Source: Neoarius graeffei (Eukaryota; Chordata; Actinopteri; Siluriformes; Ariidae). Taken from it: 64,000 nt of DNA. Where the stretch lies: positions 6,320,001 through 6,384,000 of the forward strand of contig NC_083586.1 of NCBI RefSeq assembly GCF_027579695.1, in the 5' to 3' direction. The notes under the pieces were generated by a model. It searched no databases. It had not been told where the DNA came from and saw only the letters and a program-made list of their open reading frames with translations. Positions within the stretch are counted from its first letter, which is position 1. Every line of letters begins with the position of its first letter. This document shows positions 35,505-63,400 of this stretch, piece by piece. A program made the position numbers and the translations under genes.

Positions 35505-36110
35505 AGAGACAGACAACAACAGACAGACAATGAAGGAGAGCAACAACAGACAGGCAATGAAGGAGAGCAACAACAACAGAGACAGACAATGAAGGAGAGC
35601 AACAATAGAGACAGACAATAAAGGAGAGCAACAACAGACAGACAATGAAGGAGAGCAACAACAGAGACAGACAATGAAGGAGAGCAACAACAGACAGACA
35701 ATGAAGGAGAGCAACAACAGACAGACAAAGAAGGAGAGCAACAACAGAGACAGACAATGAAGGAGAGCAACAACAGACAGACAATGAAGGAGAGCAACAA
35801 CAGACAGACAATGAAGGAGAGCAACAACAGACAGACAATGAAGGAGAACAACAACAACAGAGACAGACAATGAAGGAGAGCAACAACAGACAGACAATGA
35901 AGGAGAGCAACAACAGACAGACAATGAAGGAGAGCAACAACAGAGACAGACAATGAAGGAGAGCAACAACAGACAGACAATGAAGGAGAGCAACAGAGAC
36001 AGGCAGTGGAAGAGAGAAACAACAGATAGACAATAAAGGAGAGCAACAGAGACAGACAATGAAAGAGAGCAACAACAGACAACTGAGGTGAGCAACAGAG
36101 ACAGACAATG
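35505..36110. repeat. Minisatellite of ~26-bp units
   Basis: About 22 copies built on ACAGACAATGAAGGAGAGCA plus CAACAACAG or GAGACAG spacers. The minus strand is open in three frames (Cys/Leu/Ser repeats) simply because the unit lacks stop codons there. It is flanked by GGGCTGTGCGATAT at 35368 and CCCGTAGCC-type sequence at 36303, both typical of hAT ends. Confidence 0.9.
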
Positions 36111-39054
36111 AAGTCACAGCACAGTTGTAGGAACATAACAATAATAAGTTAGACAACAGAGAACTTATAACGAATATAAAAATGTCTAAATTAGAAGATT
36201 TGAAGTGTGCTCGTGTATTTGGGGGTACGGGAGTAGGGGGCCAGATGAAGTCCACTTTTGGGGAAAAAAGATCCCCCCCCTCCACAATGCTGGCTACGGG
36301 CCTGGTGTGTGCATGTTAAGCGCAGTGTAATATTAGCCACTGATGACTGGGATCCTGGGGACCCCAGCCATAGTGGCCTGTTTGTCTCTGTTTCCACAGG
36401 CATAACTCCAGCAGAGGTGCACCCCAAATTGGCGGGAGTTCCAAATTCCGTTTGGGCGAAGGGTAAACATGATGTAGGCCTAATAAAGAATGCTGAACCA
36501 GTGGTGAATACCCCCAAATCAGATTTCAGGCCTAAACAGACCCAGTACCCACTCAAACCAGAAGCAATTGCAGGTATAAGACGGGTCTTTGATTCATTGC
36601 TGAAGGCAGATGTAATTGTCCCTTGCCAGGACTCTCCAGTGCGCACTCCTATTTTTTCCAGTTAAGAAGGCAAGAAAACCATCCCAGCCCGATGAGTGGA
36701 GGTTTGTCCAAGATCTACAAGCAGTCAATGCTGCGGCTGTCCCGCACGCGCCTGACGTCCCTAAAGAGTGCTCTGCAGACCACACCCACTTTGGGACTGC
36801 CTGACCCCAATAAACCATTTGTTCAAAGTGTAGATGAAAAGAAGGGTTTTTATGACCTCTGTTCTTTTGCAGAAACACAGGGATAGATTGAGACCTGTAG
36901 CCTACTTCTCCAGCAGGGTGGATCCAGTGGCGGCTGGACTTCCTGTTTGCCTGCGTGCAGTTGCTGCAGCTGAAAAGGTGGTAACTGCTTCCAGAAATAT
37001 TGTGGGGTACTCTAACCTCACCCTTTTGGTCCCACATGCTGTCTCCCTGCTTCTGTTGTAGAAAAGACGTCACATTTGTCAGCACAGAGATGGTTGAAGT
37101 ATAACACTGTCATACTTGATATGCCTAACATCATTGTGAAACGTTGTTCTGTTCTGAATTCTGCCTCTCTTCTCCCTACAGAGGATGATGGAGAGCCACA
37201 TGACTGTGTTGCTCTCACTAATGATTTTTGTTCCCCCAGGTCAGACTTAAAGAGTGACCCTTTTGGAAAATCCAGACATGGTCCTCTATGTGGATGGTTC
37301 AGCCTCCAGAGACTCAGAGACAGGAAAGAGCAAAGTAGGTTTTGCCGTAGTCTCAGATCACGAGGTCCTCAAGGCGTTGTGTCTGCCCTCAAACCTGTCA
37401 GCGCAGGCCGCAGAGCTCTGTGCCTTTATTGAGGCATGCAAATTGGCTGCAGGGCAATCTGTCAATATTTTTACGGACAGTAGGTATGCATTTGGCGTTG
37501 TGCACGATTTTGGCACTATTTGGAAACATAGAAATTTTCTCACTAGCACAGGATCTCCCATTGCACATCATAAACTGGTCTCTGAGTTGTTGGATGCTGT
37601 TCTACTCCCTAGAGCCATTGCTGTGTGTAAGTGTGCTGCCCATACTAACAATACTGATCTTCTGTCTCAAGGGAATGCCAGGGCAGACGCAGCAGCTAAG
37701 TGTGCAGCCTCGGCTTCCAGTTCACTCTCTAACCTTGCCTTTCCTCAGGTTTCTACCCCTTGTTTACAGCTAGCGGACCTTCAGAGCACTGCCACCCAGG
37801 ACTAGAGATGAGTCTGGAAACAGGCGGGCTGTATCCTTGCAAACTTGGTCTGGGTTTGTCCCTCGGGCCGTCCCTGTCTACCAAAATGCATGTTCCCTTT
37901 CAATGCAAAATTGGCACATGGGCTCACCCATGTGTCAAAAGGGGGGATGGTAGCAGAAGTAACAAAGAGATGGTTCACAAAGGGGTTTTCAAATTATGCT
38001 GCGAAATTTTGCAAGCAATGCTTGATATGTGCACAACATAATGCAGGTCAAGGTATCAAACTAACTCAAGCAGCACACCCAATACCAGACAAACCATTTG
38101 ATCATCTCCAAATGGACTTCATTGAACTGACACTTAAAAATAAACTAAGCAAAGCTTGTGCAGAAACAGGGCTAGGATGGACAAAGGTCCTCCCTGTAGT
38201 ACTCACACAAATGAGGATGCAAACTAGACCTAAACATGGGTTAAGCCCATTTGAAATTCTGTTTGGACGAGTACCCAACACGAGGATAGGGCCAGCTCAA
38301 GGAACACTGCCAGACACCACACTGTGTGATGATGCAATGTTGAATTACTGTGCAACGTTGTCCTCTGCTTTGAAATCTATCCACAAAGAAGCACTTCCCA
38401 AACCCGCTGAGGGACCTCTGCATGATCTACAACCAGGGGATTGGATCTTGGTGAAGGACTTCCAACAAACCAAGTTGAACAAGCCACGGTGGAATAGCCC
38501 ATTCCAGGTCCTGCTCACGACCCCAGTGGCAGTGAAGGTCACAGGCAGAGTGACATGGATCCACGCTAGCCGCTGCAGGAGGGTTCCTGAACCGGCTGAG
38601 CAGGAGGAAAAGAAGGCCTAAGTGACCCAGACGCTGACTAAAGCTCGTGAGGAAGAAAGGCATCACTGCATGGAACAGTGCAAGTATCACATCAATCACG
38701 CATGCACCCTCAATAGGGAAGAGTATTTCAGTGTCTAGCTCATAGATAAGCCTGAGGGTTTCGAGTTTCCTCCAAGTCCCGGTGAGATGGGACGAGGGCT
38801 GATAGGGCGTGCCCGCCCTCTGAGCACCAATACATGTCAAGAAGGGCAAGGGTTAACTCGGTAACATCATTGAGGCACTGAACAAGATGCGCAAGGTTGC
38901 TGAACAATTACGAGCAGATGAACATGGAGGAGTTGAAGATAGCTGATCGTGTTAGTTCAGTGGATGGAAGACTCTGATTCTATCCACCATACCGGTCCTG
39001 GGCTTAGTGATTGTGATGCTATGTTTGCTCCCTGTTTTCTGTCAATGTTGTATA

Positions 39055-40365: not shown

Positions 40366-40955
40366 GTGAGGGAATTTTAATGGATGAACATTATTATTCT
40401 CTGTGTTTCTGTATGTTGAGCTCAAGTGACTTAATGGATGAACATTATTATTCTCTGTGTTTCTGTATGTTGAACTAAAGTGGCTTAGTTACTGAGAAGA
40501 GATGTTTTTCCACATGCTGTAATCGCTTTTCTGTGGCCTTGGTGGTAATGAGCAGGGTGCTTGAGTTCGTCCTAACTACGCATCTTCTCATGATGTAATC
40601 ACCTTTCCTGACCTCGGTGGTGATAAGCAGGGAGCTTGAGCTCTCCCTAACTCGCATCTGCCTGCACATACCAGAGCACGCCAGGTGCACTCATTAGTAA
40701 GACTTCATAGAAAATCTTGAGCCAATCACGTGACGACACAAGCAGTGAGCGAATGCTTTCAGAGTATAATAGATAACATTCCTAAAACACAACTCAGAGT
40801 GCGCGTACTCTCGGCATCATCAGAAGTGGTGTCTTCTTCTATTCTTCTCTTTCCTTTCCTATTTTATATATATTTTATATGATCTACTGTAATAAATAAC
40901 TGAAAAGACGACTCCTAAGCGTTCTGAAGTGTTTATTAGAAATTTCCATTACGGG
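40366..40955 (+). repeat. 3' LTR of the class I retrovirus fossil
   Basis: Follows the purine tract AAAAAGAGGGGAGAA, starts TGTGAGGGAATTTT and ends near AAATTTCCATTACG, an imperfect inverted repeat of the start. Two ~60-bp direct repeats (ATGGATGAACATTATTATTC) open the U3, and AATAAA lies at about 40890. The 3' edge is uncertain by about 15 bp. Confidence 0.7.
40932..40937 (-). promoter_or_regulatory. Polyadenylation signal AATAAA for the PABP-like gene, inside the LTR
   Basis: AATAAA reads on the minus strand 30 nt after the stop codon at 40967. It falls in the last part of the retroviral LTR in antisense, so the gene may use a virus-derived 3' end. Confidence 0.5.
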
Positions 40956-40966
40956 TGCAGTGTTTT

Positions 40967-41377
40967 TTAAAATCTATACTCCTTCTTCCTTCTTTTCTTG
41001 TTCTCGTCACCGAACAGCATCTTGACGGCTTCCTGTAAGAGAAGTGCACAAGGTCAGAAACAACTCCTGAATGTTTTTGATCTCTGTGTAAACTGTGATG
41101 TGACGAAACGTTTCAATAGAAATCGAATACAAAATATCGTTGTGTGTCTCAGAACTGAATTTCAGCAGACGTCCAGTTTTTATTAAAAGATCCTCACCGG
41201 CTTGAGACCAGCTTCCCTCGCTTTCAGGATCGCGTCCATTTCATCCACCTACACACAGAGAGAGGAGGAAAGAGGGATTGGTGGGTGGGGTTTTGTTTCC
41301 ACATAGCCAAAGTTAATTCATCATTTCATTATCAGACGCTTTTAAGAATCAGAGGTGAAACACTCTGTAAATTGCTT

Positions 41378-41455
<78 letters not shown>

Positions 41456-42232
41456 TGTGTGCGCGCTCACTTTGGCATACAGGAGCTCAGGATCGCTGAT
41501 CATATTCATGATTTCGTAATTGTTCTGGTTCCCTGCAAGCATCCAGGTGATCTTATTTGCCAAGTTCGGGTGGATTTTCTCAACAACAGGCAACAAGTGA
41601 TCATCTGCAGACAGACAGAGAGAGTGAGTGAGGTGTGAGAGAACAGAAATCGAGTGAATGGTCCCAGCCATCCAATCATGTAACATGGGCGGGGTTCAGG
41701 CGCCAGACTCTTTCTATTCTCGATTATTGAGGAACAAAAGCAAGACGAGTTGAAAGCAGGTGCTTGGAGAAGTTTTCGATCTCGACAAGGAAACACATCG
41801 CAAACCATAATGGGGGAGAAAAAAAAGGTACCCTATGGGTCCATGTGGCTGGCTACTGTTTATAAATAAAATAGTTTTCTGATCCCATGTCCATACAGTA
41901 AATATAGCATATATACACATGTTATCAATTCTACTCGCCTCATCTCTTGCAAGCATCACCAAGCTGCGAGCAGCATCAGGGTTTGGAGTGTTTTGGTTAC
42001 CATGTTTTGTTTAGTGTATTTTGTTCTAAATGCAGTGCTGTGAACTCGATCTATTTTTAAAATAGTATGAAAGCACTTGTTCATGAATTGTCTTTGAAGC
42101 ATTATTTAGAACTAATGAGCATATTTTGTTTCACAAGTGGAGTGTAAAGACTCTGAAATAAAAAATACAATTAAAAAATTAAAGCCAATAGCAGAAGTTT
42201 GATATCGGCTTCTCAAGTTATCTGCCAAAGAG

Positions 42233-42263
<31 letters not shown>

Positions 42264-45200
42264 CACCTTTCATTTGACCTTTCAGAAGGACCAAACAAAA
42301 GCCATGATAATCAAAAAGGTACATTTTCTTCAAATGAACACCACTTACTCGATATCGAATCAGTAGCCTTGGTGAACCACAAGGTGAATTTCGTTTATCT
42401 TTTTATCTGCCCGTTATCTTACAACACTACGAAGTTATAACGAGGTTTCTCTTATTCCATTTCTGGTTCTGATTGGTTCTGAAGTCTATCAAGAAGTAGA
42501 ACGGGTAATCGAACTTGATCAGGATAAGTGCTGATTGGTTACAAAGTCTCACTATTGTTACACTCATTCTTACAACACGATGACATAGTGGCTACTGCCT
42601 CGCTTCGCCTCTTTGAGGCAGTGGCCACAAAAAAAACAAAAACAAACAGTGGATTATACGCTGAGCTGCAGAGCAGGAGTGTGTATGAGCCAGATGTTGG
42701 TGTGTGTTTATGCGTGTATGAGTGTGAAACTCACGCGCCATCTGGACTTGTTCATCTACAGGACATGATTCCAACATGTAGATGGTCAGCCTTTTCCCAG
42801 CAGATGGTGATGTGGGTCCATCCTGGACGCAGAGGAACTCATTCTTCTTCTATTATTATTATTATTATGACTCATTACTTGTGTTTTGTTCTTACTGTTG
42901 TGTCCTTGTCTGGCTGAACTTCACTCACAGGTGACACAGCTGTAGGAGGCACTGCATCAGTTGTAGCTGGAAGTTCTTTTGCAGCTGAAACTGGAACCAC
43001 AACTGGACTGCTGTCCCCAACTGCAGCTGTCTCAACAGCTGGGACGCTTTCCAGCACTCGCTCAGCTGAAGGAACGAAAACACATCACAGCTCATTCATT
43101 TCAGTGAAAAAAACATTATCGGTATCAATTATACTATGTGCATGCAGTCAGATTCAGAAGTACTGGCATCCTTGGTAAAGATGGGTCAGAAAGGTTATGA
43201 AAATTTGAATATTATATATACACACACAGTATATATGGCTTTACATTAACTTTTTTGCTCACCGGCCACTGTGGCTAGTGGTTTTCCTGAGTCACTAGCC
43301 ATTCAGCCTTTTCACTAGCCACAATTTTGTTGCCAGGAAATCGAAGTTTTTTATTCACCATGATATGTTAAAGTTTGGAAGATCTAGATTTAATTATGAA
43401 TGGCAGCGTATAATGTATCTCTACAATAGCACTCAAGTATTCAGTGCTGTTAAGGTCGCTCCCTATATGAAAACATGCAACCAATTCAGACAAAAATATA
43501 AACAGAGTATTCTGTTTATTGAACTCAAATTCAAGCCCCTTACAATATGAAATATCGTACGATATGAAAAATAACATTCAGTACAACTGAACTGATTCTA
43601 ATATTAAAAGTCCAATTCAAAACATTTATCATTGAAAAACATTTGATGTTTTGATATGCAAGTATTATGTGTATTATCAAGTATTATTATGTATATTATG
43701 TATTATCTATTAATAGTGTGCGTGTGTGTGAACATGTGTAGAGAGAGACATTAAATGTCCTCATTACATTCATCATCAGATGAGTCTGAATGGTCCATGA
43801 AAAATGGTCTTTGTGACCTGAGGCTTCCAGCAGGCCATAAGTTGATAGCTGGGGTGAGATCAACTTCTTTCCAATCGCATGAACGTTTCTAAACCGCAGC
43901 TCCAGCCTCTCCAGCTCAGCCGACTGCATGACAGCCAGGGACTGAAAGCAATGCTGTCCTGTAGTGACCAGCCGTCTTCGCCTGTTTTGATGTTCTAGGA
44001 CTGATGTGTGCATTTGACTTTTCGTGGTCCTTTATAGTTTTGAGTTTAAAATTACTGGTGCCTGTCTTTGCCAGACTTTCTACAGTCTTCACAGTACATG
44101 TTATTTTCGGTTTTGCTATGAACTAGCCAATCACACCCGAACTTCCATTTGTCATTGAACTGTCTTATCTTCCTATTAGTGTCTTGTTCATCTCCATGGC
44201 CGCAGCCAGCTCTGAGGCCCCCGCGGTCCAGACCTCAGTCACTTTTAAGAGCTGAAATTACATTGGTATGCTAAATATTCAACTGGATAAAAAATAAAGA
44301 ATAACATTAAAATGTCTGCGTAAAAAGTGCATTGTTAATGATGTTAAACGCTGATTCTGTCTCTGTTTGGTGTGCGTGGCTCTGAGACCAAGAACAAAAA
44401 AGCGAATGAGCGCATGCGTGACTCGGGGGAGGAATGCAGTGCAGGAGACACGGGGTTTCCATGGTAACCATCAGCGCACTTTCATGAAGCTATTAAATTT
44501 ACATTTTCGAACTTCGTAGTCAGCTGGGATAGGCTCCAGCTTGCCTGCGACCCTGTAGAACAGGATAAAGCATCTAGAGATAATGAGATGAGATGAAAAA
44601 ATAAATATTATTTCCCAGCTTAAGGTCAGTCCGTATTGTGAAATACTGTGACCTCGGCCCAAAGGCCTCGGTCAGTATTTTCAAGACCTCGGTCATGGTA
44701 TTTCACGATACGGACCCCCCCAGCTGGTAAATAATACACACACACACACACACACACACGACGGTACTGTTCCATCCCGGGTTATGAGAGATATGTTACA
44801 CTGATTCTGACAACATGATGACATTGTGGCTACAGCCTACAAAAGAAACAAACAAAAAAAAACCCTTACGAATGACTAGGTACACCTTTTCGACCAACAG
44901 GGAACAAGTTCTTGAACCAATTCCATTCAGGATTCTTTGAACAGGAACAGAATCCGTTCTCTGTGGGTCGAAAAGGGGTAACGTCCCAGTTTGGTTATAC
45001 TAAACATAGGCACGAATGGAACGCTGCTCAGCCAATCAAATTATTGAGTCTGTATATTACTGAACTGTTGTATAATTAGTTAATTAGCTGATTATAGCTG
45101 AATCAGGGGAAAATGGTGCATTCCAGGACCACATTCAGGAACCTGTGGTGTAATGTGAACGTGGCCATGCCTCTAGTGGCTTTCCATATAGGATGCGCCA

Positions 45201-46576
45201 TCAAAACCCTATATTCAACATCTTGAAAGAGGCTCAAGAGGAGCTCAAATGACTCTCTGAGCAGATCGGGTTTACTTTTCAGGTTTACTCCGGACTACAT
45301 GTGCAGCAGTGCAGTTGTAGCCTGCCTTGTTTGTGATTTTAAAAATACAGTTAATCATTCGATAAGCCAAAGCAATAGAGTGGAAAGTTTCAACTTATGT
45401 TTGCCTTGGATAACTTTGCCTAAAACATGGTGGTGTATACTGATTTTTTTTTTCCCCAGAATGTTTTTTTTTTGTGTCGGTGTAACGGATGCCAGATTGT
45501 TAATGTATCTCAGTTCCTTGGGCTACATGGTTAGGGGATCTTTTGTCCTCATTGCTTGGGCCAGAGGAAACCATTAAACAAGCTTCAATTATTCTTACTC
45601 TTGCCACATACATGATTTTTTTTTCAAAACTGATGATATTCAGTTCAAACACCATTAAAAGTAACTTCAGGAATAGATCTCTTGTGTGATGTGTAATTCA
45701 CCCTCTCATTTAAATATGGAGAAAATGTTTTGGCGCGCGCTTTGCGCATCACGGACCTCGGTGATTTTAAAATGCTGCTCCGGCCCTGATCATCTCTGCC
45801 CCTTTTTCCCTGAGCAGCAGGGTTTGAAACTCCAGCTATATGCCGCCACATAGTGCACTTGTCAGTCGTCAGCAACTTTGTTGCTTCGTTCATTAACCGC
45901 AGGTTACTGCATCACTGATTTTACCTGAGACGTTAAAGTACGTTCTAAACAATTCTAACATGTTGTCAGAATGTTTACGCAGGTGCTCATGGGAGTTGTA
46001 GGCATGTAATGTTACATTGCAATGCGTTTATTATATCAGATGCCTTCAGAGAAAACTACAAAAAAATATATTGTCATACCACAGAATAAACCACCCGCCA
46101 AAGTGGCTATAGTGAGACTAAAGTCATTACCCGCCAAAGCCCAATTTTACCCGCATTTGGCGGGTGCTAATGTAAAGCCCTGATTTTATATGCATTCTAA
46201 GAGAATTTAAAAAACTTCAAAAAATTAAGCTTTTTAGAGGCACAGATTTTAACTTATCCATGTATGAAAGCAGTAACATCATACATAAATCACACATGGA
46301 TCCTTGAGCAGGCTATAAACTGGTATTAAAAATGCAGAAATAGTGTCGGGAACAGCGTTCTCCTGTCTTTTGTATGGTTTGTACTGTCTTACCATCAGCT
46401 CGATGCAGAAAGTTGACGAAAGTGTAGCCGCGTGAGGAGAAGGTCTTCTTGTCCCTGCACATGTGGACAGAGTGAATAGGTCCTGCACGGCTCACCATCT
46501 CCACCAACATCATCTCGGTGACATCAGGGTGCAGATCACCCACATACAGTGAGGTCATTGTGGAGTTTGAGTTCAT
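40967..46576 (-). CDS. Short poly(A)-binding-protein-like gene: partial RRM1 + linker + MLLE domain
   Basis: Six coding exons join in frame: 46576-46393, 43065-42896, 42822-42735, 41604-41471, 41248-41198 and 41032-40967. Each intron is GT...AG and the total is 693 nt, giving 230 residues plus stop. Residues 1-70 match the start of PABP RRM1, with RNP2 LYVGDL and RNP1 RGYTFVNF, then ADAERVL at the start of helix 2; strand beta-4 and RRM2-4 are absent. Residues 71-145 are a Pro/Val/Ala/Ser-rich linker. An MLLE (PABC) domain follows from PVDEQVQMA through KITWMLAG to about EAGLKP, and the tail [12 protein letters not shown] is basic and could be a nuclear signal. In this family the RRM binds poly(A) and MLLE binds PAM2 peptides; here the MLLE signature reads MLAG. 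Full PABPs have about 630 residues. I do not recognise a named gene. The exon 4 acceptor (42823) was chosen because it alone keeps frame and has a pyrimidine tract. Confidence 0.8.
41375..41453. repeat. (GT)n microsatellite
   Basis: About 38 GT units in the intron between exons 5 and 6 of the PABP-like gene, some 17 bp beyond the exon 5 donor. Confidence 0.95.
43228..46182. mobile_element. hAT-like DNA transposon in intron 2 of the PABP-like gene
   Basis: The left end reads GGCTTTACATTAAC at about 43233. The right end, on the opposite strand, reads CAGGGCTTTACATTAGCAC. Flanking 8-mers are only partly alike (acagtata, attttata), which suggests an old insertion. A SINE 3' fragment (44515-44597) lies within. 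No transposase frame is recognisable. Confidence 0.55.
44515..44597 (+). mobile_element. SINE 3' fragment
   Basis: Only the last 80 bp (GTAGTCAGCTGGGATAGGCT to GAGATGAGATGA) remain. It is inside the hAT-like element in intron 2. Confidence 0.75.
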
Positions 46577-46774
46577 TTTACCTAGAGAGAGAGAAAAATC
46601 AGACTTTCAGTGGTGGAGAAAAGCAAGGAGACCAACTGAATGATGGACAGAACATTGTCAGCATCGACACGGTAACCTCCTGTTTTAAACAGACAAAGCT
46701 GAGGATAAGTACACTAAAATGCATTTCTCGATGGAGACTGGAGGAATCGTAAAACGTAAGGACCTAAAGGCTGA

Positions 46775-46841
46775 AGGTGGGTTTCCCAAAAGCATCGCAG
46801 CAAAAAGATTATCGTTAAATGGTAGAGCAAGCAGCACAATG

Positions 46842-46877
<36 letters not shown>

Positions 46878-46922
46878 GTGAAGAATGTCTTAGCGTTAAG
46901 AGGCTTTTGGGAAACCCAGCCC
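46775..46922. mobile_element. Short hairpin-type MITE in intron 1 of the PABP-like gene
   Basis: Termini GGTGGGTTTCCCAAAAGC (from 46776) and its complement (46903-46920) are perfect over 18 bp and enclose a CT microsatellite (about 46842-46874). The ends resemble those at 27050, next to a Harbinger-type coding fragment, so this may be a Harbinger-derived MITE. Confidence 0.65.
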
Positions 46923-47047
46923 TGATCAGTATGAAGGTAAAGAAGAAGGAACGAGAATACACAGTTATGAGATTAGTGTGTGGCGTGTTAGTAAACTATT
47001 AAAACTTAAAAAAATACAAATCACTCAGTTAGTACAAGGTGACTTAC

Positions 47048-47112
47048 TACGAAGGAGAAGATTAAATCGCTGAAACTCGCTGTTACTCGCTGTGAAGGTT
47101 TGTGTCGCTCTG
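47048..47112 (-). other. Non-coding first exon (5' UTR) of the PABP-like gene
   Basis: The exon lies about 25-30 bp downstream of the TATA box and ends at a clean donor (GTAAGT, 47047-47042). It contains three spaced AGCGA motifs and no ATG. The next exon starts after an acceptor at 46582, with five UTR bases before the start codon at 46576. The transcription start is inferred from TATA spacing only. Confidence 0.55.
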
Positions 47113-47133
47113 AAGCTCTGTGTGGATGTGTGG

Positions 47134-47144
47134 CTCTTATATAG
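47134..47144 (-). promoter_or_regulatory. TATA box of the PABP-like gene
   Basis: CTATATAAGAG reads on the minus strand directly upstream of the predicted first exon. A canonical TATA box at this spacing suggests tightly regulated rather than housekeeping expression (inference). Confidence 0.6.
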
Positions 47145-47163
47145 CTGCAGATTTTGAAACATA

Positions 47164-47211
47164 ACTAATTAAACTGTTTTCATTTAAACTAATTAAACTG
47201 TTTTCATTTAA
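47164..47211. repeat. Two perfect 24-bp tandem copies just upstream of the TATA box
   Basis: A 24-bp unit beginning ACTAATTAAACTG occurs at 47164-47187 and again at 47188-47211, followed by the first bases of a third copy. It sits about 20-70 bp upstream of the TATA box and contains AATTAA homeobox-like cores, so it may be part of the promoter. Confidence 0.6.
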
Positions 47212-47243
47212 ACTAATTGAACTAATGAAATTGTCTGCATCAT

Positions 47244-47287
47244 GTGACCTGGGTTTTCCCTAAACTTTAGGGGAAAACCCAGGTCAC
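47244..47287. repeat. Near-perfect hairpin
   Basis: GTGACCTGGGTTTTCCC pairs with its complement at 47271-47287, and the intervening TAAACTTTAG also pairs, leaving almost no loop. It lies about 100 bp upstream of the TATA box. Confidence 0.8.
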
Positions 47288-47465
47288 GTGACCAGGTGCC
47301 ATCAGCTCCCTGAGAGAGAGAGAGAGAGCGCATCCTGATCGCTCTGTCTTGTTCAGTAGCCCATTCAGTGTTCTGTGTGGGTGGCTTTGTGTAGCAGGTG
47401 GAATCACCTTTTACTCTGCAGTTTCCCTGAGATCTGGCTGCATTGGGAGGGGCCAGTCCAATTAA

Positions 47466-57330: not shown

Positions 57331-59200
57331 TTAGAACAAACTCGTATGCGTGTGAATCAATTTACTTGATTCACTCTTGATTCTTAACTCATTCTTTAGC
57401 AAGAGTAAGTTGTGCAAAGTGGGGTCCCTCTTCCATTTAACTAATGCTTCTTTTTTGGCCCGGGTTGCTGGCTCCATAACCATAAGGTTGGCTTCGTACC
57501 AGTCAACATTTCTCTTTTCTTTCCTCCCAAATGCGGCAATAGCAGACTTGTATATAGCAGTGCTGAGGTGCTGCCATCGTGTTTCTGCTGACACAACATC
57601 CCTGGCCTGTCTCAGGCCATTGATAAGGGAATGGAATTTGTTTTTGCTGTCAATATCTTTAGTACGGGCAGGGTTTATCCTTGGGAGACTCCTAGGCCTC
57701 GCATGGTGCAGCAGTTTTCTTCCTTGTAGCGCTATTTTGCTGATAACAAGGGAATGATCGGAGTCACAGTCAGTGCTGCGATAGCTCTGTGTGCTGTGCA
57801 CCGTTTGGAGTGTTTTCCTTCTGGAAATGATGAGGTCAAGCTGGTGCCATCGATGTGATCTGGGGTGCATCCAGGAGACTTTGTGCTTTTCCTTGTTTGG
57901 GAAATAAGTATTTGTTATACATAAGTTCCTGGCGCAACATAGTTCCAAAAGTCTCTGTCCGTTTTCATTTATTTTGTCCACTCCAAAGTGGCCGAAGCAT
58001 GCCGGACAGACATCGTGCTCAGTGCCAACTCTGGCGTTGAAATCGCCAAGCAGGTAGATGTCCTCTGTTGGAGACATTTGACTAATAAGCTCATCGAGCT
58101 CATTGTAGAACTTGTACTTTGTCTCAGTAGGGACTTAAGCGTGGGTGCATAGACAGACACAAGGTTTACTGGACTGTTTGTGGAGCTTAGACGAAGGCAC
58201 AGTAGCCGTTTGGTACCGCCAGAAGGTGCTTCTATCATGGTTAGGAGAGATGTTCTTACTGCGAACCCAACTCCTTGTTCACCTCTGTCATCCTGGTGTT
58301 TCCCCTTCCAGAAGAAGGTGTATTGGCTTTCTTGTAATGAGCCATCATTTGCAAGTCTAGTTTCTTGGAGTGCAGCAATGTCCATGTTTAGTCTGGCAAG
58401 TTCAGCATCAATGACAGCTGTTTTTCGGTTGTCATCGATAAGTTGTAAGTCATTTGACCATCCTGTTAGCATTGTCCTAACATTCCAGCTTGCTATACGA
58501 AGCGCTGGAGACTTCCTTTGCTTTGTGTGAGCAGGTGTGCTGAGTATCAGCCTGCTTGTCAAGCGCGAGCGCCCTAAGCCCCTTACACCCAAAGGAGCAG
58601 CAGACCGTGATGGATCAGCACCCTATTGACTGGGGGCTGCCCAGCTTCAGGTGGGCAGTAGCTGATCAGTGGAGCGTGGTGGCTCCTCCCACCGTCAGAG
58701 GCAGCCCGTGGCGTTCTTTTTCTACGCCAATTGAAATAGGACTTATTACCCGTAACTGCTGACTCCCATGTTGTGCCCTTGCTTGTAACCAAAAAGATGG
58801 AGTGACCTCTCCATGATGCAAAACGCCTGGGGAGGGTTATGAAGATCCTGAGTTGCCCAAGCATCAGGACCCCCCTCTCGGCCTCACTGATGTGGTCCAG
58901 AAGAAAGCAGTGCAGTACATCTGCCACAAACTTGGCTGCAGGAGCTGCCGGAAGAGTTGACTGGTAGCCAGGTCAAACTGCCTAACGGGGCTCCGCTCTG
59001 AGTTTTCTGTCAGGGTTTACTTCCTGAGCCTTCCACTATCCCTAGCACTCACAAGGCAGTGAGACTATTTACCCATAGTTGGGGCCCTTGACAGGTGCTG
59101 TCACTCCAGGCCAGAGTGAGCCTGGGAGTAGTGATAGCTAAGGGGTCACTCCGCTCTCCCCACAGCCAGACCATGGCCCTATCACAGGTTGCAGTTTAAA
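57331..59200 (-). mobile_element. RTE-type LINE, endonuclease half only
   Basis: The minus strand encodes ALRIASWNVRTMLTGW, ALQETRLANDGSLQESQYTF, VSVYAPTLKSLL, then in another frame YLLGDFNARVGTEHDV, HPRSHRWHQLDLII and DSDHSLV: the exonuclease/endonuclease motifs N-E-D-H of an APE-type LINE, of the kind labelled craniofacial-development-protein-2-like. One frameshift near 58080. GC-richer 5' UTR to about 59200. It stops at 57331 before the reverse transcriptase, i.e. 3'-truncated. Confidence 0.75.
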
Positions 59201-60483: not shown

Positions 60484-63400
60484 GCAAGGCAAGTTTATTT
60501 ATATAGCACATTTCATACACAGTGGCAGTTCAATGTGCTTTACAGAAGTAAAAGCAAAACAGTAAACAATAGAAAATAAAATTGCATAAAATAAATGAGG
60601 AAGAAAAATAATAAGAATTAAACAATAGTAGAAATAAAATAATAAAATGAAGTAAAAGTTCAGTAAAAAAAACAGCAGAATAAAATAGAATAAAAGTAAA
60701 GTAAAATTTAAAACATGCAGAGACTGTAAAAGTTAAGAGTTTAAAACATGTAGAGATGACAATATTAATAATTTAGCAGAAAGCATCTGAAAACAGCTTG
60801 GTCGTTAATTTAGATTTGAAGCTGCCAACAGCAGGAGCATTTTTGATGTCCTCTGGCAGTTGGTTCCATAGCTGTACTGCATAGAAGCTAAAAGCTGCTT
60901 CACCACACTTTGTTTTAACAACAGGTTTTACCAGTAAATTTTGCTGCTGCGATCTGGTAGATCTGATTGGGTTAGGCCGCTGTAGCATATCAGAGAGGTA
61001 ATTGGGCCCTGTACCATTTAGAGATTTGTACACCAGCAGCAATGCTTTAAAGTCAATTCTGTAGCTTACTGGAAGCCAGTGAAGGGACCTTAGAATTGGA
61101 GTAATGTGCTCTGCTCTTTTTGTTCATGTGAGAACCCTAGCCGCTGCATTTTGAACCAGCTGAAGTCGTTTGATGGTCTTTTTTGGCAGGCCTGTGAAAA
61201 GGCCATTGCAGTAATCAACCCTACTAGAGATGAAGGCATGTATAAGTTTTTCCAGATCATTTTTTGACATAAGTCCTCTTAGTTTGGAAATGTTTTTAAG
61301 GTGATAAAATGCCATTTTAGTGAGTGCTTTCATGTGACTGTCAAAGTTTAGCTCGCTATCAATGAAAATACCAAGATTTTTAACCATTTCTTTTGTTTTA
61401 ATCCCCTTTGTGTCAAGAATAGTGGTAATCCTGAGTCTTTCATCTTTTTTCCCCAAATAGAATTACTTCTGTTTTATCTGTGTTCAGCTGAAGAAATTTT
61501 GTGACATCCAGTTATTGATTTGGTCAATACACTGGTAGAGACATTCAAGGGGGGTATAATCATTAGGTGATAGAGCAAAATAAATGTGGGTGTCATCTGC
61601 ATAGCAGTGATACAAAATTGAGTTGTTCTTGATAATTTGCCCAAGTGGGAGCATATAAAGGTTGAATAGTAATGGTCCAAGAATCGACCCCTGGGGGACA
61701 CCACAGGTCAAGGACATTGATGTTGAGGTACAATTTCCCATGGTAACAAAGAAGCTTCTATCTTTTAAGTATGATTTTAACCAAGTGATAACTTTACCAG
61801 TCAACCCAACCCAGTGTTCAAGTCGATATAGCAGTATGTTGTGATCAACAGTATCAAAAGCTGCACTGAGGTCCAGTAACACCAGGACCGATGTTTTGCC
61901 TGCATCAGTATTAAGACGTATGTCATTTATAACTTTAATTAGCGCTGTTTCAGTGCTATGATTGGCACGAAATCCTGACTGAAAGTTATCAAAACAGCTG
62001 TTTGATATCAAGAAGGAAGTTAATTGATTGAAGACAATTTTTCAAGGATTTTCCCCTATGAATGGTAAATTTGATATTGGCCTGTAGTTGTTTAATACTG
62101 AAGCATCCAGATTATTCTTTTTAAGTAGGGGCTTTACAACAGCTTTTTTTCAGGGACACAGGAACAATGCCAGTCTCTAGGGATGTATTTATGATTTGAA
62201 GCACATCTGTAATTATAAGATGAAGAACAGACTTAAAAAAGTTGGTGGGCAGAATGTCCAATTCAGATGTTGAGGAACTGAGATTTTGTACAGTTTTTTC
62301 AAGAGTCTCATAATCAATTAAACAAAATTCTGACATTGTGTTGAAGTTATCTGTCTGTGTCACTGGTGATTGCAGTTTTTCAATTATTTGCAACTGAGAT
62401 ATATTATGAGCAATATTCTGCCATATTTTATCAATTTTACCTTTGAAGAAGGATGCAAACTCTTTGCATTAACTGAGAGAAGTTCAGGTGCTAATTGTGG
62501 TGGGGGATTAGTTAGCTTCTCTACTGTTGAAAATAGCACACTGGCATTGTTCATATGCCTGTTGATGATGTTGGAGAAGAAAGACTGTCTTGCTTTACGA
62601 ATTTCATAATTATATTTACAAAGCATCTCTTTATGGATTTGATAATGGATGTGAAGTTTAGATTTGCGCTATTTTCTTTCAGTCTTTCTACATTCTCTCT
62701 TTAGCAATTTAACAGCTGGGTATTGCTTCCATGGTGCTTTCTGCTTGTCATTGACTCTTTTGATTTTGAATGGAGCAATATCATCCATAATTTGGGTCAT
62801 ATTTAAATTAAAAATTTCCAGTAAATCATCTACAGAGTCTGACATTTTGGTTGAGATCCGAGAGAGAGCTTGCTCAAAGAGAACACATGTGTTGTCGTTT
62901 ATGACTCTCCTACCCATAGTTGTTGAGCTGTTCTGAATGTGAGGAGACATAGAAACATCAGAGAAAACACAAAAATGATCAGATAAGGCCAGGTCAACAA
63001 CAGTAGTAGAAACAGTAAGACCCTTTGTGATGACGAGGTCAAGGGTATGACCACGAGAGTGGGTCGGCCCCTGTACATGTTGTACTAGGTTGAAGTTGTC
63101 AATAAGTGCAAGTAGTTCTCTGGCATAAGTGTTTGCAGGATTATCTACATGCAAGTTAAAATCCCAGATATAATAAGACAGTCAAACTCTAAGCAAATGA
63201 CTGACAACAGTTCACCAAACTCTTCCAGAAAAATTTTGGCTGAATGTCTCGGAGGCCTGTAAATAGTTAATAACAATATGTTAGGAGAGCATGTAACAAG
63301 TGCACATAAGTGGTGAAAGGATGTAAAATCACCAAGTGAGGATTGTTTACATTGAAAAGAAACTTTGAATATATTTGAGATGCCTCCACCTTTTCCCTGT

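Follow-up and report, generated by a model that had tools for sequence, protein, structure and literature searches.

The window, a stretch of 64,000 nucleotides from scaffold C18 of the sea catfish Neoarius graeffei (assembly of 2.34 Gbp in 38 scaffolds, as given in PMC11579386), carries on its minus strand a small gene related to those of the cytoplasmic poly(A)-binding proteins (PABP) and referred to here as the mini gene. An earlier note on this stretch had described one apparently intact gene; the gene model was confirmed, but the single-gene reading was ruled out by the presence of dozens of copies in the genome.

Gene structure in the window

Six coding exons spanning 46581-40967 join to 693 nt in frame and encode 230 residues followed by a stop. 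AG is found ahead of all six exons and GT behind all but the last, and these borders and phases, as well as the description of the product as an RRM fragment joined to an MLLE domain, agree with the earlier note. Both domains scored above the Pfam cut-offs: RRM_1 with 48.5 bits (cut-off 20.7) over profile positions 1-59 of 70, which indicates that the end of the domain is absent from the mini protein, and MLLE with 42.5 bits (cut-off 27). The mini protein, which also shows the MLLE fold, thus belongs to the MLLE-domain proteins, but it has a single RRM fragment where PABPC proteins have four RRMs.

A TATA-like box, CTATATAAG, was read at 47136-47144, followed by a non-coding exon 1 (47048-47120, with a tentative 5' boundary) whose donor GTAAGT lies at 47047-47042; like the polyadenylation signal AATAAA at 40932-40937, these minus-strand elements were found where they had previously been placed. 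Exon 2 (46581-46393) contains the ATG at 46576 and encodes strands 1-3 of RRM1 and the start of helix 2, with RNP2 and RNP1 motifs reading LYVGDL and RGYTFVNF. In exon 3 (43065-42896), the initial codons of PABP exon 2 are fused to a linker exon, as judged by comparison with the long parent locus L017 and the type B locus L010 (see below), and the repeat TGGAAAGC lies at 43053-43046. The MLLE region starts in exon 4 (42822-42735), which carries a conserved LTIYMLES block; its core, in which KITWMLAG replaces KITGMLLE, is encoded by exon 5 (41604-41471), and its end by the 51-nt exon 6 (41248-41198). Exon 7 (41032-40967) encodes a basic tail and the stop, and its lysine run and tail frame differ among copies.

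The matching N. graeffei proteins P0001-P0005 and P0007 are predicted models, with 85-96% identity for P0001-P0004. P0003, the NCBI model of the window copy on C18, has identical coding exons except that exon 3 is 33 nt shorter through the use of an internal donor, GTGAGT (42923-42928), giving 219 residues. In P0007, a model of a copy on C21, exon 1 is spliced to exon 2 as the earlier note had proposed, but the reading frame begins ahead of the TATA box, which means that either this model or the assignment of the TATA box is in error at that copy. The 9-mer CTATATAAG was also found in the mini copies L015, L023, L026, L027, and L031 and in the type B pair L024/L025, and was absent from the examined stretches of L011 and L018. 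The recurrence of the same exons in other copies shows that the exon structure in the window is not due to chance.

Two side observations concern the promoter region. An inverted repeat at 47241-47293, hairpin-like and situated around CACGTGACCTGGGTTTTCCCC, lies upstream of the TATA box. Over 47066-47367, which covers the promoter and exon 1, the window is 94% identical to the type B pair L024/L025, whereas the coding exons are only about 82% identical; this difference suggests either conversion between promoters or strong constraint.

In the best of five AlphaFold2 models of P0001, full RRMs aligned over model positions 6-136, including 78 of the 80 residues of 6pai_D, and the RRM part was 59-64% identical to the PABP chains of 1cvj. 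The LTIYML segment was placed at the position of the lost fourth strand of RRM1, with a low mean pLDDT of 58 for the block, and was predicted as partly helical in a two-RRM relative. No MLLE domain was present in the 50 rows listed by Foldseek; it was matched in a second structural comparison, and its fold is common to the mini protein and canonical PABPC1/PABPC4.

The long parent and the fusion point

The nearest long relative of the mini gene is L017 (C24, 6.19 Mb), whose RRM exon encodes the beginning of the 534-residue model P0036, in which RRM1 to RRM3, a remnant of RRM4, a linker, and an MLLE domain were recognized by eye. A reading of L017 as a broken mini copy was rejected, since P0036 shows this locus to be the long parent; L017 is devoid of the fused exon 3. 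The intron that precedes mini exon 3 matches the one preceding exon 2 in the long gene, and the mini gene thus descends from an intron-bearing PABP gene, as a multi-RRM parent in the same genome shares exons with it as well as this intron.

Mini exon 3 follows the sequence of long-gene exon 2 up to CTGGAAA and then that of the linker exon (GTGGAAAGCGTCCCAGCTG). The repeat at the breakpoint reads TGGAAA in L017 and TGGAAAGC in the type B gene, which locates the fusion within a 6-8 bp repeat. Both breakpoints were found in L017, where the repeats are 1727 bases apart, and the frame is kept across the junction. The fused exon 3 was present in the 24 copies chosen for having the exon lengths of the window copy, and also in L019 and L022. 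Other loci of the genome retain more of the PABP architecture: exon matches for all four RRMs were found at the type C locus L030, and for RRM1, RRM2, and RRM3 at type B loci (shown for L009 and L020).

These results argue that the earlier proposal of a loss of RRM2-4 by deletion from a PABP was right, the parent being present and the fusion point visible. An origin within the PABP branch, with a deletion between direct repeats, is thus very probable from the sequence comparison. The mini gene comes from a divergent, multicopy branch of cytoplasmic PABPs, found here only in catfish, with members carrying several RRMs. On the line of descent that includes the C24 gene, about 1.7 kb were deleted between the short direct repeats, which removed the end of RRM1, RRM2, RRM3, and the RRM4 remnant and joined exon 2 in frame to the linker exon. 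The mini gene differs from its long parent by 11 silent changes over some 101 sites; between types A and B, silent divergence is about 0.43, with ratios of 0.37 for the RRM exon and 0.27 for the MLLE, so that types A and B had mostly diverged before the deletion took place. How a domain-fused mini gene was born can be followed in one genome, from parent and breakpoint to about thirty daughter copies.

Copies in the N. graeffei genome and constraint on them

A search with the RRM1 exon (43 candidates, 40 scored) gave 40 genomic matches: 29 at 93-100% identity over the exon, one partial match at 91%, and ten at 81-84%, which are of type B. One of the 29 strong matches is the long parent L017, and 28 loci are mini-like by sequence. 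For the MLLE exons, at least 50 matches at E <= 0.001 were obtained from 71 candidates, a number that includes four canonical PABPs and a few others outside the mini family. This mass duplication, its inverted pairs, and a living parent go beyond what could be noticed from the window itself.

Fourteen of the 29 strong RRM1-exon loci form, by their coordinates, seven head-to-head pairs (three on C1 and one each on C4, C12, C21, and C28), and one head-to-head pair of type B lies on C12. In the three mini pairs examined, the arms are 98.2, 97.8, and 97.6% identical, and those of the B-type pair 99.1%. Eleven of the 29 loci, on C17, C18, C20, and C24, fall inside the first 6.4 Mb. Such copies on many scaffolds and in inverted pairs could be produced if the gene were carried by a mobile element whose ends are fixed, such as a transposon bounded by long inverted repeats, and the pair centres do hold repeat-like sequence that recurs, by eye, at about 49.7-49.9 kb of the window. 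However, where the outer flanks were examined, the shared stretch stops downstream at window position 40953, 40431, 40161, or past 36305, depending on the copy, and L015 and L029 share their downstream flank up to the end of the sequence examined. A fixed-end element is therefore not supported and is, in our view, extremely unlikely; the variable downstream ends fit segmental duplication better, which is the likeliest route by which the mini gene spread, partly as head-to-head inverted pairs. In a nucleotide tree of the copies, pair partners were intermingled and insertions interfered, and no conclusion was drawn from it.

In addition, the blocks at 18.77 Mb and 26.50 Mb of C1 (L021, L022, and L031) are 99.5% identical over about 9.9 kb, and each holds, next to a gene copy and a head-to-head pair, one additional 3' fragment (exons 5-7). 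They are read as a recent block duplication.

The integrity of the copies was analyzed over exons 3-6 in the same 24 copies. This set excludes L017, L019, L034, L035, L038, and L042, in which one of these exons is missing from the stretch examined or of another length, L022, which coincides with L031, and types B and C. No stop was found in 20 of the 24 copies. All six coding exons were examined in eight mini copies (the window copy, L011, L015, L018, L023, L026, L027, and L031), and the frame was open from the RRM through the MLLE in all of them except L011, which has a stop; the tail is shifted in L018 and L023.

Among the 20 open copies, the pairwise pN/pS ratio was 0.48 (bootstrap 0.30-0.85), with values of 0.88 for exon 3, 1.12 for exon 4, and 0.215 for MLLE exons 5-6. 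Divergence among copies was 0.027-0.040 in three introns and 0.072 in the fourth. Because changes at CpG sites are very frequent in the introns, unique variants were counted in exons 3-6 of the 24 copies against an expectation derived from the mutation spectrum of two introns. In the MLLE exons, 19 replacement changes were found for 27.3 expected and 17 silent changes for 13.2 expected, a ratio about half of the neutral one; the difference between the MLLE and exons 3-4 had a Fisher p value of 0.04, uncorrected for multiple tests. For the 19 intact copies, singletons gave a ratio of 1.1 and variants present in at least two copies one of 0.63; L037 belongs to the 20 open copies and was dropped from the 19, and L015 belongs to both sets.

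Several results weigh against a role for the mini protein. Over exons 3-6 as a whole, 62 replacement changes (63.3 expected) and 31 silent changes (27.5 expected) give a ratio of 0.87 under the intron spectrum, and for this reason the pairwise value of 0.48 was not accepted as proof of function. Unique nonsense changes amount to 3 for 3.2 expected without selection. Exons 3 and 4 are neutral under the same spectrum, the linker looks neutral as well, and the RRM exon appeared free of constraint in 11 arms, a count of little weight that, like that of eight copies, includes L017, and that holds both arms of three pairs. Finally, four of the 24 copies (L011, L014, L040, and L046) have a stop in exons 3-6, the donor is lost in L037, and the acceptor in L015. 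Constraint since the copies arose is thus weak and confined to the MLLE. The earlier note had taken the conserved frame as an argument against a pseudogene; as the copies are young, nonsense changes occur at the neutral number, and only the MLLE is weakly constrained, this argument is weakened.

The mini genes may be passengers, by-products of segmental duplication that are mostly functionless and still open because they are young. The unconstrained linker and RRM exon, stops at the neutral rate, variable tails and lysine runs, and several broken copies agree with this explanation. On the other hand, exons 3-6 are free of stops in most copies, the MLLE exons show about half of the expected replacement relative to silent changes, the derived MLLE is kept by long paralogues in several catfish genera, and six mini copies, among them the one in the window, retain the TATA-like box. 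We regard the passenger explanation as a serious possibility, although one that falls somewhat short of an even chance.

The modified MLLE domain and its possible role

A protein search gave 17 matches, of which 14 were from catfish (Neoarius, Hemibagrus, Tachysurus, Silurus, and Ictalurus) and three matched the RRM only; all 13 proteins of a further list of relatives were also from catfish. In a profile search, in which only 7988 candidates were scored and 4028 proteins passed, the top rows of the best 120 were mainly catfish proteins, accompanied by some PABP1-like proteins from other fish, and canonical PABPs followed. Several catfish species carry more than one copy of the derived PABP-like gene. 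No mini form was conspicuous outside Neoarius among the relatives listed, which included no other ariid. In a tree built from 23 selected proteins (a single FastTree run, support values not taken into account), the 14 derived catfish proteins form one branch apart from nine canonical PABPs, and the mini protein groups with P0036 inside it. In a Tachysurus ichikawai model, P0025, the derived MLLE is joined to a HARBI1-like nuclease, which may reflect an artefact of the model or a transposon inserted at one of the copies.

The long members of this branch (P0036, P0040, and P0043 in N. graeffei, P0049 in Ictalurus punctatus, P0022 and P0027 in Tachysurus, P0018 and P0033 in Hemibagrus, and P0023 in Silurus) keep at least two RRMs, whereas the mini protein has only the RRM1 fragment. 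Both forms share a block of the LTIYMLES type (KRLTLYMLES in P0043), His or Tyr at position 563, and no Gly at position 579; a basic C-terminal tail is also present in most of the long proteins. The mini protein thus shows all the features of the branch. Human PABPC1L2A/B, an inverted pair on the X chromosome, are also shortened PABP paralogues; they keep RRMs and are not known to have an MLLE, whereas the mini protein keeps the MLLE and has lost RRM2-4.

In PABPC1, whose numbering was taken from PMC2854688, this source describes the pocket for the PAM2 phenylalanine as formed by G563, E564, F567, T582, and L586, adds a bond with the G579 carbonyl, and names this phenylalanine the most important determinant. 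The aligned residues of the window protein are H563, D564, L567, N579, T582, W583, A586, and G587; G563, F567, G579, G583, L586, and E587 are replaced and T582 is kept, so that neither the KITGMLLE signature nor the PAM2 phenylalanine pocket of PABPC proteins is retained. These changes extend over the branch: all 14 derived catfish proteins, mini included, carry His or Tyr at 563 and a residue other than Gly at 579, and 12 of them have Trp at 583. In contrast, G563, G579, and AGKITGMLLE are kept in all nine canonical PABPs, and AGKITGMLLE also in the four canonical MLLE loci of N. graeffei. Canonical PAM2 binding is consequently doubtful, on the basis of these residues, for the whole catfish branch, and the claim that the mini protein is able to touch PAM2 partners was not borne out. 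The reading that followed from that claim, a weak poly(A) binder competing with canonical PABPC for PAM2 proteins, appears very unlikely with the pocket replaced in the mini protein and changed at 563 and 579 throughout its branch; its own long paralogues in catfish are more plausible competitors than full PABP.

If made, the product would act as a small adaptor through its modified MLLE and would bind poly(A) little or not at all. Its competitors for a putative ligand would be the long paralogues that share the modified pocket. This functional step is a guess, and one that we consider rather unlikely. Taken as a whole, a young multicopy family founded by a deletion-born mini gene and encoding such an adaptor is the explanation that we favour, by a little over an even chance. 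A more specific scenario is improbable in our estimate: the pocket would have been re-specified in the catfish branch, with His or Tyr at 563 and mostly Trp at 583, for a new ligand, and the mini protein would be a many-copy decoy in N. graeffei in which LTIYML swaps, as the predicted structures might allow, from the first MLLE helix to a strand in place of the lost fourth strand of RRM1. Together with the mini family, a PABP branch with an altered MLLE pocket in several catfish families makes two questions testable, namely what the ligand of the altered MLLE is and whether duplicating a truncated regulator on such a scale is adaptive or a passenger process.

None of the open-access papers listed bore a title on the mini PABP-like family. 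In channel catfish, a testis-biased 'polyadenylate-binding protein 1-like' appears in PMC3709890; this protein could be an ordinary germline PABP and is a lead only. The fungal protein Rrm4, for which PMC9249222 mentions MLLE1 and MLLE2, is an endosomal RNA transporter with three MLLE domains, and no close relationship to the mini protein is implied.

Other features of the window lie outside the gene. Downstream of it, adjoining plus-strand open frames at 37251-38621 match RNase H and the C-terminal domain of an MLV-type integrase, and are read from these matches as the remains of a retrovirus-like element; this flank is common to two C1 copies at about 97% identity. A minisatellite with a 27-base unit in about 22 copies occupies 35514-36113, where three minus-strand frames are open over more than 220 codons. 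LINE-type fragments were found on the minus strand at 57331-58622 and 61484-62041, with endonuclease-like matches under the curated cut-off and one reverse transcriptase match.
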